A stretch of 64,000 bases of DNA, from positions 62,001 to 126,000 of the forward strand of contig NZ_JAWDKB010000001.1 of NCBI RefSeq assembly GCF_032714495.1, written 5' to 3'. The notes under the pieces were generated by a model that was not told the DNA's origin, searched no databases, and saw nothing but the letters and a program-made list of their open reading frames with translations. The position numbers and the translations under genes were made by a program. Shown here piece by piece: positions 10,594 through 50,055 of the stretch. Source of the DNA: Methanorbis rubei (lineage in GTDB: Archaea > Halobacteriota > Methanomicrobia > Methanomicrobiales > Methanocorpusculaceae). Position 1 is the stretch's first letter. The number at the start of each line of letters is the position of its first letter.

Positions 10594-15877
<5,284 letters not shown>

Positions 15878-17040: not shown

Positions 17041-17555
17041 TGTTTTTTGGGGGTTGATAATGGCGGATTGTATAAGGAGATGGGATTTTTCTGTTTTTGG
17101 CCTTGTTTGGGGTAACCACGGAACACACTGAACACACGGAATTCCACGGAAAAATGTACTCTCACAAAAAGATTTAGTCGATTTTTTTCTGGAAAAAGTA
17201 AGTGGGTAAGTGGCGAGTGGGCATGATGAGAAAAGAAAACCGCAAATCCGCGCAAATCTCGCCCTTCGGGCTCCACAAATGCGATTTGCTGAGCGAGCAT
17301 CAGCGAGCGAGATTTGCGTGGATTTGCGGTTTTTTTTCAAGCGAAACCACGCTCACCACTTATCCGATTACTTTTTTCCAGAAAAAAATCGACTAAATCT
17401 TTTCGTGGTATCACACGTATACCCCGTACTCTTAGTCTTTCCGTGTTTTCCGTAAGCGAAGCGGTATTCGGTGTTTTTTTCGTGGAATTCCGTGGAATTC
17501 CGTGTGTTCCGTGGTTACTCCAAGCGAAACGTCACAGGAACCCCCCACCTCCTTA
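17041..17555. repeat. Nested mosaic inverted repeat (three arm pairs)
   Basis: This gap is one giant nested palindrome. The outer pair is GGTAACCACGGAACACACTG (from 17111) with GTGTGTTCCGTGGTTAC (17501-17517). The middle pair is GATTTAGTCGATTTTTTTC (17171-17189) with GAAAAAAATCGACTAAATC (17381-17399), exact over these 19 bases and extending through the GTAAGTGGG/CCACTTATC segment. The inner pair is AAACCGCAAATCCGCGCAAA (from 17237) with TTTGCGTGGATTTGCGGTTT (17313-17332), one mismatch, and includes a small GCCCTTCGGGC hairpin. CCGTAAGCGAAGCGG (17450-17464) repeats a segment of the 10832 arms. It fills 16992-17668 between two leftward genes; no gene seen. Confidence 0.93.
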
Positions 17556-22214: not shown

Positions 22215-22216
22215 AT

Positions 22217-22545
22217 ATGACTTATACGACGATGAGTTTCATTTTTTGGGATTTTCCTGCCATTGGTCTTGCTCAAAGTAACCACGTATCGCATGCCTTT
22301 GGCCTGCTCACCGCTTCGCGGGAACACACTGAACCCACGGAGTTTCACGGAAAACAACTTCGTAAAAAATGCACGGAGAACGCCTGCGGCGCCGGAATGC
22401 ACGGAAGAACCAAGGTGATGGGCGACTTCCTTATCTTTTTCCGTGCATTCCGGCGCCGCAGGCGTTCTCCGTGCATTTTGATATTTTCCGTGAAGCTCTG
22501 TGTACTCCGTGCATTCCGTGGTTATTCCAAGTGAAATCGCATACC
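22217..22545. repeat. Mosaic inverted repeat with perfect 40-bp arms
   Basis: The core arms 22366-22405 and 22440-22479 are exact reverse complements (40 bp; GAACGCCTGCGGCGCCGG inside) around a 34-nt loop. Outside are the GTAACCACG / GTTATTCC ends and the leader phrase GATGAGTTTCATTTTTTGGG. The same 39-bp core occurs at 33262-33393. The element occupies all of the gap between two convergent genes, the YgjP-like gene and glnK. A separate GC-rich module interrupts its left arm (next entry). Confidence 0.95.
22287..22321 (-). repeat. Short GC-rich module inserted in a repeat arm
   Basis: In other copies CCACG is followed directly by GAACACACTGAAC. Here about 35 bases, beginning TATCGCATGCCTTTGGCC and ending CTTCGCGG, separate the two halves. 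Its reverse complement closely matches 10988-11019 and 49977-50009. This is the clearest sign that the modules move or are exchanged independently. Confidence 0.8.
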
Positions 22546-22588
22546 GAAAAACCACACCATGCAAATCCTATTAAAAAATATGAATGGG

Positions 22589-22921
22589 TCAGTCGATGAT
22601 GAGCTCATCAGTGCGGACCCATGCCGCTGCCTCGACCGGCAGGACAAAGATTCGTCCGTCTCCTTTTTTGCCGGTGCGTGCATATTCGCGGATGGTTTTG
22701 ATGGTTGTCTCGACATCTTTGTCAGGGATAACGATCTCGAGTTTCGTCTTTGGGAGCGTGTGGATCTGCATCTTTCCTGCACGGTACTGCAGACAGATTC
22801 CTCTCTGTTCACCGCGTCCGCGGACGTCGGTGATGGTGACTCCCGGTATGTTCTGTGCTTCAAGGGCATCTACTACGTCATCCACCTTCTCCGGGCGGAT
22901 GATTGCAACGATCATTTTCAT
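22589..22921 (-). CDS. glnK: PII nitrogen regulatory protein (GlnK)
   Basis: A 110-residue PII trimer subunit. The C-terminal signature is ARTGKKGDGRIFVLPVE and the core start is MKMIVAIIRPEKVDDVVDAL. The T-loop reads VRGRGEQRGICLQYRAGKMQ, which lacks the usual tyrosine of the uridylylation site of bacterial GlnB, as in many archaeal GlnK. It senses ATP/ADP and 2-oxoglutarate and plugs the ammonium channel. It lies 20 bases downstream of amtB with a strong Shine-Dalgarno AGAGGAGA, so they form one transcript. Confidence 0.95.
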   Translation of the reverse strand: MKMIVAIIRPEKVDDVVDALEAQNIPGVTITDVRGRGEQRGICLQYRAGKMQIHTLPKTKLEIVIPDKDVETTIKTIREYARTGKKGDGRIFVLPVEAAAWVRTDELIID

Positions 22922-22941
22922 GGTAAATGTTCTCCTCTGAT

Positions 22942-24141
22942 TTAGTTTACTACCTCGCCGTGCTGGGCGATATCCAAGCCGACATACTCTTCGTCATCGG
23001 TGACCCGCAGGCCGATGATCTTGTCGATCACCCATGCGATGAGGAAGGTAACGCCGAATGCGTAGATGACTGCAACACATGCATCGAGTATCTGGATGCC
23101 GAACTGCGTGATGTTTCCTTCGATGAGTCCGCCGACTCCGCCGATTGCGGTGATTGCGAAGACTCCGGTGAGGATTGCTCCGGCAAATCCTCCCATTCCA
23201 TGTACTGCCCATGCGTCAAGGGAGTCGTCAAGTCCTTTCTTGATTCTCCAGGTAAGGGCTGCATAGCAGACTATTGCGGTGATGATACCGATTGCAAGAG
23301 CGCCGCCGACGTTGACAAATCCTGCTGCGGGAGTGATTCCGACAAGTCCTGCGATAGCTCCGGTGATGAATCCAAGGGAACTTGGCTTTCCGCTCTTCCA
23401 TGATATCGCCATCCAGGTGAGGGCCCCTGCAGCACAGGCGACTGCGGTTACGAGGAATGCACTTGCGGCAATGTTGTTTGCGGCGAGCGCACTTCCTGCG
23501 TTAAATCCGAACCATCCAAGGATGAGGAATACTCCGCCGATGAGGGTGAGCGGGATGTTGTGCGGGTTCATGACCTGATTTCCGTAGCCGAGGCGTCTGC
23601 CGATTACGACGGCGAGTGCGAGTGCTGCAAATCCGGAACTGATGTGAACGACTGTTCCGCCAGCAAAGTCAAGGGCTCCAAGCTGGCCTGCCCATCCTCC
23701 GCCCCAGGCCCAGTGGGCGAGCGGGGCGTAGACGATTGTGAGCCAGATTGCACCGAAGATGAGGTATGCCGACATTTTAATTCTGCCAACGACTCCGGAG
23801 GAGAGGATTGCAAGTGCCAGACATGCGAACATCATCTGGAAGCAGATGAAGAGCATCTCCGGAATTTCCCCGGTTACTCCGTCGATTGAGACGTTGTTGA
23901 GTCCGAGGAACTCAAGGTTTCCTATGAGGCCGCCAATATCACTGCCGAACGCAAGGGTGTATCCGATGATGATCCATTGGATTACGCCGAGGGCGAGGGC
24001 TGTAAGAGACAGCATCATGGTTGCGATGACGTTCTTTTTTCTTACCATTCCACCGTAGAACAGGCCTACTGCGGGCACCATCAGCAGTACTAATGCGGCT
24101 GAAATCAGTACCCAGGCTGTCGCACCAGTATCAATATCCAT
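22942..24141 (-). CDS. amtB: Ammonium transporter AmtB
   Basis: A 399-residue integral membrane ammonium channel with about eleven transmembrane helices. The pore twin histidines are His166 (GGTVVHISSG) and His314 (WAVHGMGGFAG). MVRKKNVIATMM in the first loop and GFNAGSALAANN are family landmarks. No signal peptide is seen, as usual for archaeal members, and the C-terminal tail is short (DDEEYVGLDIAQHGEVVN). It is transcribed with glnK. The upstream region has a TATA-distal hairpin at 24221-24272 that may be a nitrogen-control site. Confidence 0.97.
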   Translation of the reverse strand: MDIDTGATAWVLISAALVLLMVPAVGLFYGGMVRKKNVIATMMLSLTALALGVIQWIIIGYTLAFGSDIGGLIGNLEFLGLNNVSIDGVTGEIPEMLFICFQMMFACLALAILSSGVVGRIKMSAYLIFGAIWLTIVYAPLAHWAWGGGWAGQLGALDFAGGTVVHISSGFAALALAVVIGRRLGYGNQVMNPHNIPLTLIGGVFLILGWFGFNAGSALAANNIAASAFLVTAVACAAGALTWMAISWKSGKPSSLGFITGAIAGLVGITPAAGFVNVGGALAIGIITAIVCYAALTWRIKKGLDDSLDAWAVHGMGGFAGAILTGVFAITAIGGVGGLIEGNITQFGIQILDACVAVIYAFGVTFLIAWVIDKIIGLRVTDDEEYVGLDIAQHGEVVN

Positions 24142-24220
24142 AGTAATTCACCGTTTTGTTGGCACAACAATGCAAAAAACATCTGAAAAAGAGCCCCAAT
24201 CTTCCCCTGCGGTGACGGAC

Positions 24221-24272
24221 ACCACAGGTTTAAGGGACCTCCCTTTTCAAAACCTTTTGTGGTGTGTTGTGC
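24221..24272. promoter_or_regulatory. Palindromic region between amtB and the sugar nucleotidyltransferase
   Basis: AAGGGA-CC-TCCCTT (24232-24245) is a short inverted repeat nested between ACCACAGGTT (from 24221) and AACCTTTTGTGGT (to about 24263), which also pair with a small bulge. It lies about 90 bases upstream of amtB and 180 upstream of the rightward gene. It does not match the GGAA-N6-TTCC consensus of the methanogen repressor NrpR, so a different regulator or an RNA structure must be considered. Confidence 0.5.
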
Positions 24273-24425
24273 TATTACTGATGTTGATCTTGAGGTGATA
24301 TAAAAACAAATGTCTCGTGCTAACTTGTGTCATGCTAACGTTTGTATTTTATGGGCTTTGTGGTGCTGCCGCGCATGAGTGGGGGATACAACCAATAGAT
24401 ACGAGTGCATAATAGTAGAGATAAT

Positions 24426-25604
24426 ATGAAAGCCTGCATTATGTGCGGCGGCGAGGGTACGCGTCTTCGCCCGTTGACTTTTGAGCGGCCGAAGCCGTGT
24501 ATTCCGATTGCGAACAGTCCGTCTATTGTTCACTTAGTGACGCATCTTGCAAATCTTGGTTTTACGGATATTGTTATTACGATCGGTTATCTTGGTGATG
24601 AGATTCAGAAGGCTCTGGGCGATGGGTCGCTGTACGGTGCGACGATTACGTATGTGCCGGAGAAGGTGAAGCTGGGAACGGCAGGGTCGGTGAAGAATGC
24701 GGAGGAGTATCTGAATGATGCGCCGTTCCTTGTTGTGGGCGGGGATCATATGACGGATCTGAATGTTCTTGAGTTTTACCGCGAGCACATGAATTCGTCG
24801 GCGATTACGTCGATCGGGCTGATCAGTATCGAGGATCCGCGCGAGTTTGGTATTGCGGAGATTGATGCGTCGCTTCGTATCCGCAGGTTCCGCGAGAAGC
24901 CTTCTCCGGGAGAAATTTTTTCCAATCTTGCGAGCACGGGCATTTATGTGTGCGATCCGCGGATTTTTGAGTTTATTCCGTCCGGTGTGAAGTTTGATTT
25001 TGCGAAGGATCTGTTCCCGCTTCTGATGGAGAGGGGGTATCAGCTGAACGGGTGGCTTGCCCGCGGGAACTGGACTGATGTGGGTAATCCTGTGATGCTG
25101 CGTGCGGCAGAGAAGTGGAAGCTGCAGGAGAATGCGTTGACGAGTGTGTCCGGTACGCTGAATGTGAAGGATGCGCATATTACGGGCCCGGTGCGGTTTG
25201 GTGATGGTATTACGCTTGGTGCAGGGTCGCGTGTGGTTGGTCCGGTGTTTATCGGGTCAGGGGCTATGATCGGGGAGAATGTGATTATCGGTCCGTACAC
25301 GAGTATCGGTGAGAATGTGATGATTAAGAGTAATGCGAAGATCTTTTCTTCGTCGATTTACAATGGTGTGGTTGTTGGGGCGAATACGACGATTTCTGGG
25401 AGTATTATTGATATTGATACGACGATCGGTGATAACTGCTCAATTGAGCATAATACGGTTGTGGGTCCGCGGTCGGTTCTGCGGAATGGGGTGACGATTC
25501 ATTCAGGCACACGACTGTGGCCTGAGGTTATTGTTCCCGAGCGGTCGGTTGTGACAGAACACATGCTGAATGATAAGTTCGATACGCGTTACGAAGGTTC
25601 GTGA
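24426..25604 (+). CDS. Sugar-1-phosphate nucleotidylyltransferase with beta-helix domain
   Basis: A 392-residue enzyme that activates a sugar 1-phosphate with an NTP. The N-terminal domain begins MKACIMCGGEGTRLRPLTF, the NTP-binding signature GGxGTRLRPLT, and includes VVGGDHMTDLN. From about residue 240, hexapeptide repeats form a left-handed beta-helix (MIGENVIIGPYTSIGENVMI). This matches archaeal mannose-1-phosphate guanylyltransferase or glucose-1-phosphate thymidylyltransferase-like proteins; the true sugar and base cannot be told. I use the ATG at 24426, where the domain begins, not an in-frame ATG 21 bases upstream. A U-tailed hairpin follows the gene. Confidence 0.93.
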   Translation: MKACIMCGGEGTRLRPLTFERPKPCIPIANSPSIVHLVTHLANLGFTDIVITIGYLGDEIQKALGDGSLYGATITYVPEKVKLGTAGSVKNAEEYLNDAPFLVVGGDHMTDLNVLEFYREHMNSSAITSIGLISIEDPREFGIAEIDASLRIRRFREKPSPGEIFSNLASTGIYVCDPRIFEFIPSGVKFDFAKDLFPLLMERGYQLNGWLARGNWTDVGNPVMLRAAEKWKLQENALTSVSGTLNVKDAHITGPVRFGDGITLGAGSRVVGPVFIGSGAMIGENVIIGPYTSIGENVMIKSNAKIFSSSIYNGVVVGANTTISGSIIDIDTTIGDNCSIEHNTVVGPRSVLRNGVTIHSGTRLWPEVIVPERSVVTEHMLNDKFDTRYEGS

Positions 25605-25616
25605 ACGTGAGGGAAA

Positions 25617-25651: not shown

Positions 25652-25673
25652 GATGATCTTTTTTTGATTGGGT

Positions 25674-25831
25674 GATGTGTGGCTCTCGCTTTCCTCTGTA
25701 TTCACATACTACCATCGACGCACATCATTACGCAAAAAAAATCAGTCATGGAGATGTGTGGCTCTCGCTTTCCTCTGTATTCACATACTACCATCGACGC
25801 ACATCATTACGCAAAAAAAATCAGTCGTGGA
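25674..25831. repeat. Exact 79-bp tandem duplication downstream of hisE
   Basis: The unit that begins GATGTGTGGCTCTCG (25674-25752) is repeated directly at 25753-25831 with a single difference near its end (ATCAGTCATGG versus ATCAGTCGTGG). The second copy runs into the last codons of the leftward hisE gene (stop at 25821-25823), so a short piece of the hisE 3' end and its downstream flank were duplicated. The near identity indicates a recent event or ongoing slippage. Confidence 0.95.
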
Positions 25832-28254: not shown

Positions 28255-28485
28255 CAACTTCGCGGAAAAAACACTAAATACATGGAATTCAACTAAACAA
28301 TGTACTTTCAGAAAAAGATTTAGTTGGCTTTTTTTTCTGAAAAGCGCAAGTTGGTATGAAATCGCATAAGAAAAAGGGATTCTCTGTCCTTGGTTTTATA
28401 TGGGGCAACCACGGAACACACTGAATACACGGAATTCCGTGTGTTCAGTGTGTTCCGTGGTTACTCCAAGCGAGACCACCTACAG
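28255..28485. repeat. Mosaic repeats: 56-bp near-perfect palindrome plus flanking modules
   Basis: AACCACGGAACACACTGAAT (from 28407) and its right-hand partner (28435-28462) form a 28+28 bp palindrome with no loop, centred on GAATTC at 28434/28435, with one mismatched pair. To the left are GAAAAAGATTTAGTTGGC (28311-28328), a copy of the GATTTAG family, and GGTATGAAATCGCATAAG (28354-28371), which recurs at 60882. This fills most of the 418-bp gap between proS and the M24 peptidase gene, both leftward. No gene seen. Confidence 0.92.
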
Positions 28486-49810: not shown

Positions 49811-50055
49811 AATTTTTTTGAAACGCGAATAACGCGAATAAAAAATCGCCAATGGCGATTTTTAAGAAATTTCCAAAATTATTTTTATTGGATATATCTA
49901 TCCATATAGAGGTGTATAGAATTTTTTTATTTGAGCTATTTCGCGAAGCTGCGAAGCAGTGAACACGACGGAACGGCGTGCGAAGCGGTAAGCAGGCTGC
50001 AGGCATGCGATTCGCGTTTCGAAATTTTCGTCACCGCGTAACTCCTATTGGAAAT
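49811..50055. repeat. ATCGCCA-family repeat interrupted by a GC-rich module
   Basis: GAAACGCGAATAACGCGAAT and AAAATCGCCAATGGCGATTT (49820-49861) form the left half. The right half should read CTATTTGCG...ATTCGCGTTTC, but 68 bases (49942-50009) separate CTATTT from ATTCGCGTTTC (50010-50020). This insert contains CGAAGCGGTAAGCAGGCTGC and GGCATGCG, the same module found at 10988 and 22287. CGTCACCGCGTAACTCCTAT (50030-50049) matches the outer end at 61011. It lies in the 461-bp gap between the CorC gene and psmB; the rest is AT-rich and no gene is seen. Confidence 0.88.

Follow-up and report, generated by a model that had tools for sequence, protein, structure and literature searches.

Background

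Among the described systems closest to the element analyzed here, REP/REPIN sequences with TnpAREP (RAYT) are found in more than 100 copies of 20–40-base hairpins with GT[A/G]N at their foot and a mid-stem mismatch, have paired hairpins as their mobile unit and leave no target duplication (PMC3116915, PMC8266576, PMC6006769). The tetranucleotide at the hairpin foot of REPs is GT[A/G]G, and IS200/IS605 ends comprise a guide and a final tetranucleotide (PMC6006769); the stems of E. coli REPs require mid-stem mismatches (PMC8266576). IS200/IS605 ends, as in IS608 and ISDra2, contain two hairpins and a final tetranucleotide of their own, lack inverted repeats and duplications, insert 3' of a fixed tetranucleotide, which remains in the left flank, and show variation in the third base of the guide and the first of the cleavage site, the guide/target pairs of IS608 including A+16:T-3 and A+17:T-4 (PMC5934647). 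The GC clusters of yeast mitochondria are GC-rich double hairpins of ~30–45 bp, arranged in nested and shuffled units, rapidly gained and lost between close relatives, with no known enzyme and with flanking AG or ACT duplications; RNA-mediated copying has been proposed for GC42 (PMC4478555).

The 35-bp element M1 resembles REP/REPIN in its number of copies, hairpin size, GT[A/G]N, mid-stem mismatch, paired hairpins and apparent lack of target duplication, and IS200/IS605 ends in its two hairpins, position 3' of a fixed left-flank tetranucleotide, final tetranucleotide, lack of inverted repeats and of an apparent duplication, and variation in guide and cleavage bases. It differs from REP/REPIN in being archaeal, in having two direct, non-inverted hairpins within 35 bp, in its guide (GTRA instead of GTRG), in being nested in other repeats and in belonging to a genus where no Y1 transposase gene was found. 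Unlike IS200/IS605, it has no tnpA or tnpB inside and no left-end guide, its enzyme was not found, and its G12-A1 combination is not a Watson-Crick pair. The double hairpin, nesting and presence/absence polymorphism of yeast GC clusters were also found in M1, while short AG/ACT duplications were not, the flanking tetranucleotide being better read as part of the element, and the genome is that of a cellular archaeon. Small GC-rich double hairpins resembling M1 are also known as the double-hairpin elements (DHE) of fungal mitochondria (Allomyces), and small dispersed repeats of cyanobacteria reportedly described by Elhai in 2008 are, as M1, tiny and inserted in other repeats. M1 appears to work like a REP/IS200 element, whereas in appearance it recalls yeast mitochondrial GC clusters with their nested, shuffled units.

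No earlier description of the M1 repeat was found in a literature search that was thin on subscription journals. If mobile as proposed, M1 would rank with the smallest known mobile DNAs of cells. Filled and empty orthologous sites are available for it in the two sister species, along with a covariation between cleavage site and guide that is readable from sequence, and it provides a natural case for testing the movement of REP-like elements and mitochondrial GC clusters without a visible transposase.

M1 in the window

The window, i.e. the whole stretch of 64,000 nucleotides analyzed, belongs to a genome of 1.83 Mb (G000), which was compared with that of a sister species (G004) whose DNA is 88–95% identical; both, as well as their congeners, carry the genus label Methanocorpusculum in this analysis. 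The original prediction was that a 35-base GC-rich block interrupts a host phrase, and a split of 35 bp was indeed detected at 22287, the phrase being contiguous at 10855, 17121 and 28414 (this last copy ends in GAAT instead of GAAC). The block corresponds to M1 on the reverse strand (22286-22320), composed of a 31-bp core (22290-22320) and the 3' tetranucleotide ATAC (22286-22289), with the target tetranucleotide TTCC (22321-22324, same strand) as a left flank that stays in the host. It is located in a host repeat arm of the TTCCGTGGTTAC type, and the paralogous arm GTGTTCCGTGGTTAC is present without interruption at 11083-11110, 17503-17530 and 28449-28476. For site 22287 a clean G004 ortholog is lacking, since its host repeat coincides with the breakpoint of an inversion. 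A search of the window against Rfam matched only a tRNA.

Sequences matching the core CGAAGCGGTRAGCAGGC were found at 10991-11007 (forward), 22302-22318 (reverse, one mismatch, G for A) and 49981-49997 (forward), for a chance expectation of 0.16, and three copies were reached in none of 100 shuffles. The block predicted at 10988-11019 turned out to have the same core (10989-11019, forward strand), forming with its 3' TTCC an M1 of the GTAA subtype (10989-11023) preceded by the target TTCC (10985-10988). The 68-base block at 49942-50009 does hold the same module, but is not a longer relative: it is an M1 core in which a second element is nested (31 + 33 + 4). This M1 (49942-50013, forward) is divided into two parts (49942-49949 and 49987-50009), followed by 3' ATTC (50010-50013), by the element M2, inserted in hairpin 1 (49950-49986, forward; 33 bp at 49950-49982, then the tetranucleotide AAGC at 49983-49986). 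The host of the first M1 is a palindromic repeat of TTCCGTG units (22215-22540) and that of the second a palindromic repeat with M1 in its loop region (10815-11110), while the M1 carrying M2 lies in a second host family of ATTCGCG units, with arms around AAAAATCGCCATTGGCGATTTTT (49816-50020). As anticipated, a discrete module splits different host repeats, of at least two unrelated families.

Structure of M1

The core consensus of 186 copies from G000 and G004 was [C/T]GCGAAGC[G/A]G T[A/G]A GCAGGCC NNA GGCATGC G, and the ends of the module coincided across these 186 copies. The order of parts is hairpin 1 (CYGC-GAA-GCRG), GT[A/G]A, hairpin 2, a G and a 4-base end, WNNC. In the copy at 22286-22320, the fold predicted for the reverse strand places hairpin 1 (C-CGC-GAA-GCG-G, also backed by covariation) at 22311-22321, its closing C being part of the target TTCC and not of M1, hairpin 2 (GCAGGCC-AAA-GGCATGC, with one G.A mismatch in the middle of the stem) at 22291-22307, and the guide-like tetranucleotide at its foot, GTGA, at 22308-22311. 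Positions 1 and 9 of hairpin 1 changed in a compensatory manner (C-G 128, T-A 35, T-G 19 and C-A 0 copies), which shows that this hairpin is under structural constraint; two well-separated variants of it were recognized. In hairpin 2, a single purine-purine mismatch is retained midway along the stem, and the loop varies freely. M1 has subterminal hairpins with an irregular stem, the mid-stem purine mismatch of hairpin 2 being present in M1, M2 and a third element, M3. Its ends (CGCG.../...TGCG) share 3 bp and are not terminal inverted repeats.

Distribution among genomes

Whole-genome pattern searches allowing up to two mismatches yielded 112 copies in G000 and 108 in G004 (overall estimates of ~112-118 and ~97-108, respectively), while the reversed pattern, used as control, gave 0 matches vs. 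112 for the true pattern in G000. Among 232 genomes of the order, M1 was carried by five (118, 97, 2, 2 and 1 copies) and was absent from the other 227; beyond G000 and G004, the carriers were only three congeners with 1-2 copies each. In bulk, M1 is a repeat of two sister methane-producing archaea, spread through their repeats. Exact-pattern matches in bacteria were discarded as chance, as they shared only a common 19-base word and had unrelated flanks. A half copy of M1, comprising hairpin 1, the guide and the first half of hairpin 2, was found after CTCC on the reverse strand near position 6605 of L031, a metagenome-assembled genome whose label, Methanocalculaceae, places it outside the genus.

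Orthologous filled and empty sites

M1 was present in one species and absent from the other at orthologous loci, in both directions and with a net insertion of exactly 35 bp. Sites filled in G004 were C7:2219 and C9:81383, and those filled in G000 were C5:117405, C1:234578, C3:83316, C2:143623 and C4:24115; the evidence rests on these seven loci, since other paired empty matches were in part paralogous. The best case was C7:2219 of G004, with flanks identical to the empty G000 site at 56/56 positions and 35 additional bases in G004. These sites, together with ends that coincide in ~190 copies, support the mobility proposed in the original prediction. Taken together, the comparisons of copies and sites establish a unit with discrete ends, a net insertion of 35 bp, constraint on hairpin 1 and a 3' tetranucleotide that travels with the element.

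Mode of movement

M1 may be a 35-bp non-autonomous mobile element that moves in the manner of IS200/IS605/REP, as folded single-stranded DNA, directed by a guide and with an enzyme acting in trans, a reading to which we give a probability of about 0.5. The match relies on the lack of duplication and of inverted ends, the hairpins, the guide-like tetranucleotide and the insertion 3' of ATTC/TTCC; against it, M1 has no guide between the target and hairpin 1, where the left ends of IS200/IS605 have one. In such a process, the hairpins of the folded single strand would be recognized by the enzyme supplied in trans, cleavage at the 3' tetranucleotide WNNC would be guided by GT[A/G]A, located at the hairpin 2 foot, and insertion of M1 would occur 3' of a matching target tetranucleotide (TTCC or ATTC) without target duplication. 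Part of the later spread would be due to gene conversion or to mobility of the host repeats.

The main rival is gene conversion over short tracts, from one host repeat to another. It probably helps to spread copies, and it probably multiplies them after founding insertions, since the M1 subtype is tied to host position. In its full form, this alternative holds that most of the spread took place between dispersed host repeats, a filled repeat passing its 35-bp insertion to an empty one by ectopic gene conversion or by microhomology template switching, so that few founders are needed. All M1 copies sit in host repeat families, subtype and tetranucleotide are linked to the insertion position in the host, and the tetranucleotide derives from the donor rather than from the target, all of which would be expected; moreover, template switching is made possible by the short direct repeats (CGCGAA, GCGAAGC) that lie at the junctions of nested elements. 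However, the flanks of C7:2219, identical to the empty ortholog, differ from the nearest filled copies at no fewer than 13 of 56 positions (43/56 identical to the most similar one), so any conversion tract there would be ~35 bp long. Conversion also leaves unexplained the founder insertions into two unrelated host families and the presence of M2 or M3 inside M1. As a full account of the copies, it is possible but rather less than probable.

Origin of the 3' tetranucleotide

The original prediction had raised a possible target-site duplication, and a 31-bp element inserted at a staggered cut, with duplication of 4 bp of target (ATTC, TTCC, AAGC) as in MITEs or yeast mitochondrial GC clusters, would explain why 81 of 186 copies have identical tetranucleotides on both sides, a register that is the clear peak of the register scan. 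That count is confounded, since the repeat units of both hosts already terminate in ATTC or TTCC. AAGC on both sides of the M2 nested in M1 and the sites C3:83316, C5:117405 and C1:234578 are also compatible with a 4-bp duplication.

The dependence of the right tetranucleotide on the element was analyzed in 88 copies with the left flank fixed at TTCC. It began with T in association with A at element position 12 (53:1) and with A in association with G12 (31:3; p=3e-19, or p=2e-12 after collapsing near-identical copies), p-values that describe linkage and do not count independent events, since M1 copies are related by descent. The linkage persisted in copies with TTCC on the left and GTGG in the right flank (18:1 and 8:1), and position 12 carried 0.59 bits of information on the tetranucleotide, while every other position of the module carried <0.1. 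In addition, the right tetranucleotide was unlike the target at three orthologous sites (GTCC/TTCC, the case of C7:2219, as well as TTCT/AATC and TTCT/TCTC). A 4-bp duplication, at first accepted, was rejected because the tetranucleotide tracks position 12 of the element and not the target; with the terminal inverted repeats and exact target-site duplication of MITEs (DDE transposase) both missing from M1, this alternative is improbable.

The tetranucleotide is better read as the 3' end of a 35-bp M1, apparently inserted without duplication. Insertion 3' of a conserved tetranucleotide, an own tetranucleotide at the right end and no duplication were all found, the nested M2, with AAGC on both sides of 49950-49982 as a true 4-bp duplication would have, being an ambiguous exception. 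GTRA is in place, and base 3 of the guide covaries with base 1 of the cleavage tetranucleotide; only the A-T combination is canonical, and a pairing rule for the guide is not demonstrated, as A12-T1 is a Watson-Crick pair and G12-A1 is not. We take the guide of IS608 to be AAAG at +15 to +18; if so, A+17/T-4 is the pair that varies in M1. M2, which has another hairpin 2, mostly obeys the same rule. Linkage between position 12 and the tetranucleotide could also arise if guide, hairpin 2 and tetranucleotide travel as one block.

Search for an enzyme

The Y1 transposase (PF01797) was detected in 0 of 25 congeners, with no match at E<=10 in G000, G004 and G008, whose assemblies are 95-99% complete. 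RAYT/IS200 as the actual mover is unsupported by this search, and M1 was not placed in the Y1 group, since the defining transposase was sought and not found. The enzyme may have been lost, may lie outside the assembled sequence or may belong to an unrecognized kind; that the 35-bp unit undergoes guide-directed single-strand transposition by an enzyme unrelated to Y1, in an archaeal genus without Y1, seems doubtful. Matches to a TnpB-like zinc domain (PF07282) were dismissed as weak and genus-wide, with no link to the carriers (18 matching genomes, below the cut-off in all except G012).

RNA-mediated copying, in which a small structured transcript is reverse-transcribed and then inserted as suggested for yeast GC clusters, would suit the strong structure and the burst in copy number and has a precedent in GC42 (PMC4478555); nevertheless, no reverse transcriptase (RVT_1, PF00078) was found in G000 or G004, on which ground retro-movement was rejected, and the defined 3' tetranucleotide and absent duplication fit it poorly, making it highly improbable. 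Independent origin, to be favored according to the original prediction if the copies shared only the core and their ends failed to coincide, or selection, without movement, for hairpins that serve as terminators or binding sites, would agree with conserved hairpins and copies that appear intergenic, but is scarcely credible given the identical ends, the restriction to few species and the presence/absence at orthologous loci.

Nested modules

M1 is the smallest member of a modular family comprising M1, M2, M3 and nested composites. The hairpin sequences of M2 and M3 are unlike those of M1, yet the plan is common to the family: a first hairpin, a T[A/G]A spacer and a second hairpin whose stem is interrupted midway by a purine mismatch, this second hairpin having a GAA loop in M2 and M3. 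M2 was found free-standing in ATTC and TTCC sites of the genome, as well as inside hairpin 1 of M1, while M3 occupied the hairpin 2 loop except in one case, where it lay within M2. M3 was polymorphic at C3:37049 and C2:221501, where M1 is present in both species and M3 lies inside it only in G000. M1 accounts for a landscape of nested, modular repeats by which the intergenic DNA of this methanogen lineage is being scrambled. Within an open frame of 99 aa (L241:1450-1560; G000 C2:189537), an M2-like sequence was observed whose hairpin 1 differs (CTCAC-GAA-GTGAG).

Host repeats and rearrangements

The host family with ATTCGCG arms was confined to G000 and G004, apart from three one-mismatch matches in G008, and the host family GTCTGCTCCGTGATG was common only in G000 and G004. 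A whole host repeat of ~226 bp with M1, flanked by a 9-bp direct repeat (GTTTGTGTA), was present at C4:199903 of G000 and absent from G004 (L224); judging from the sequences, the host family may itself be mobile. The host palindrome at 22215-22570 coincides with an inversion breakpoint, window positions ~22570-25609 being inverted in G004 (C13:15856-18963). At 10614-11237, the G000 host repeat (10.8-11.1 kb) is replaced in G004 by ~3.8 kb of different DNA (C10:69209-73003), which thus faces the 10988 site. A tandem duplication of 79 bp, with 97% identity, was also observed at window positions 25671-25828.
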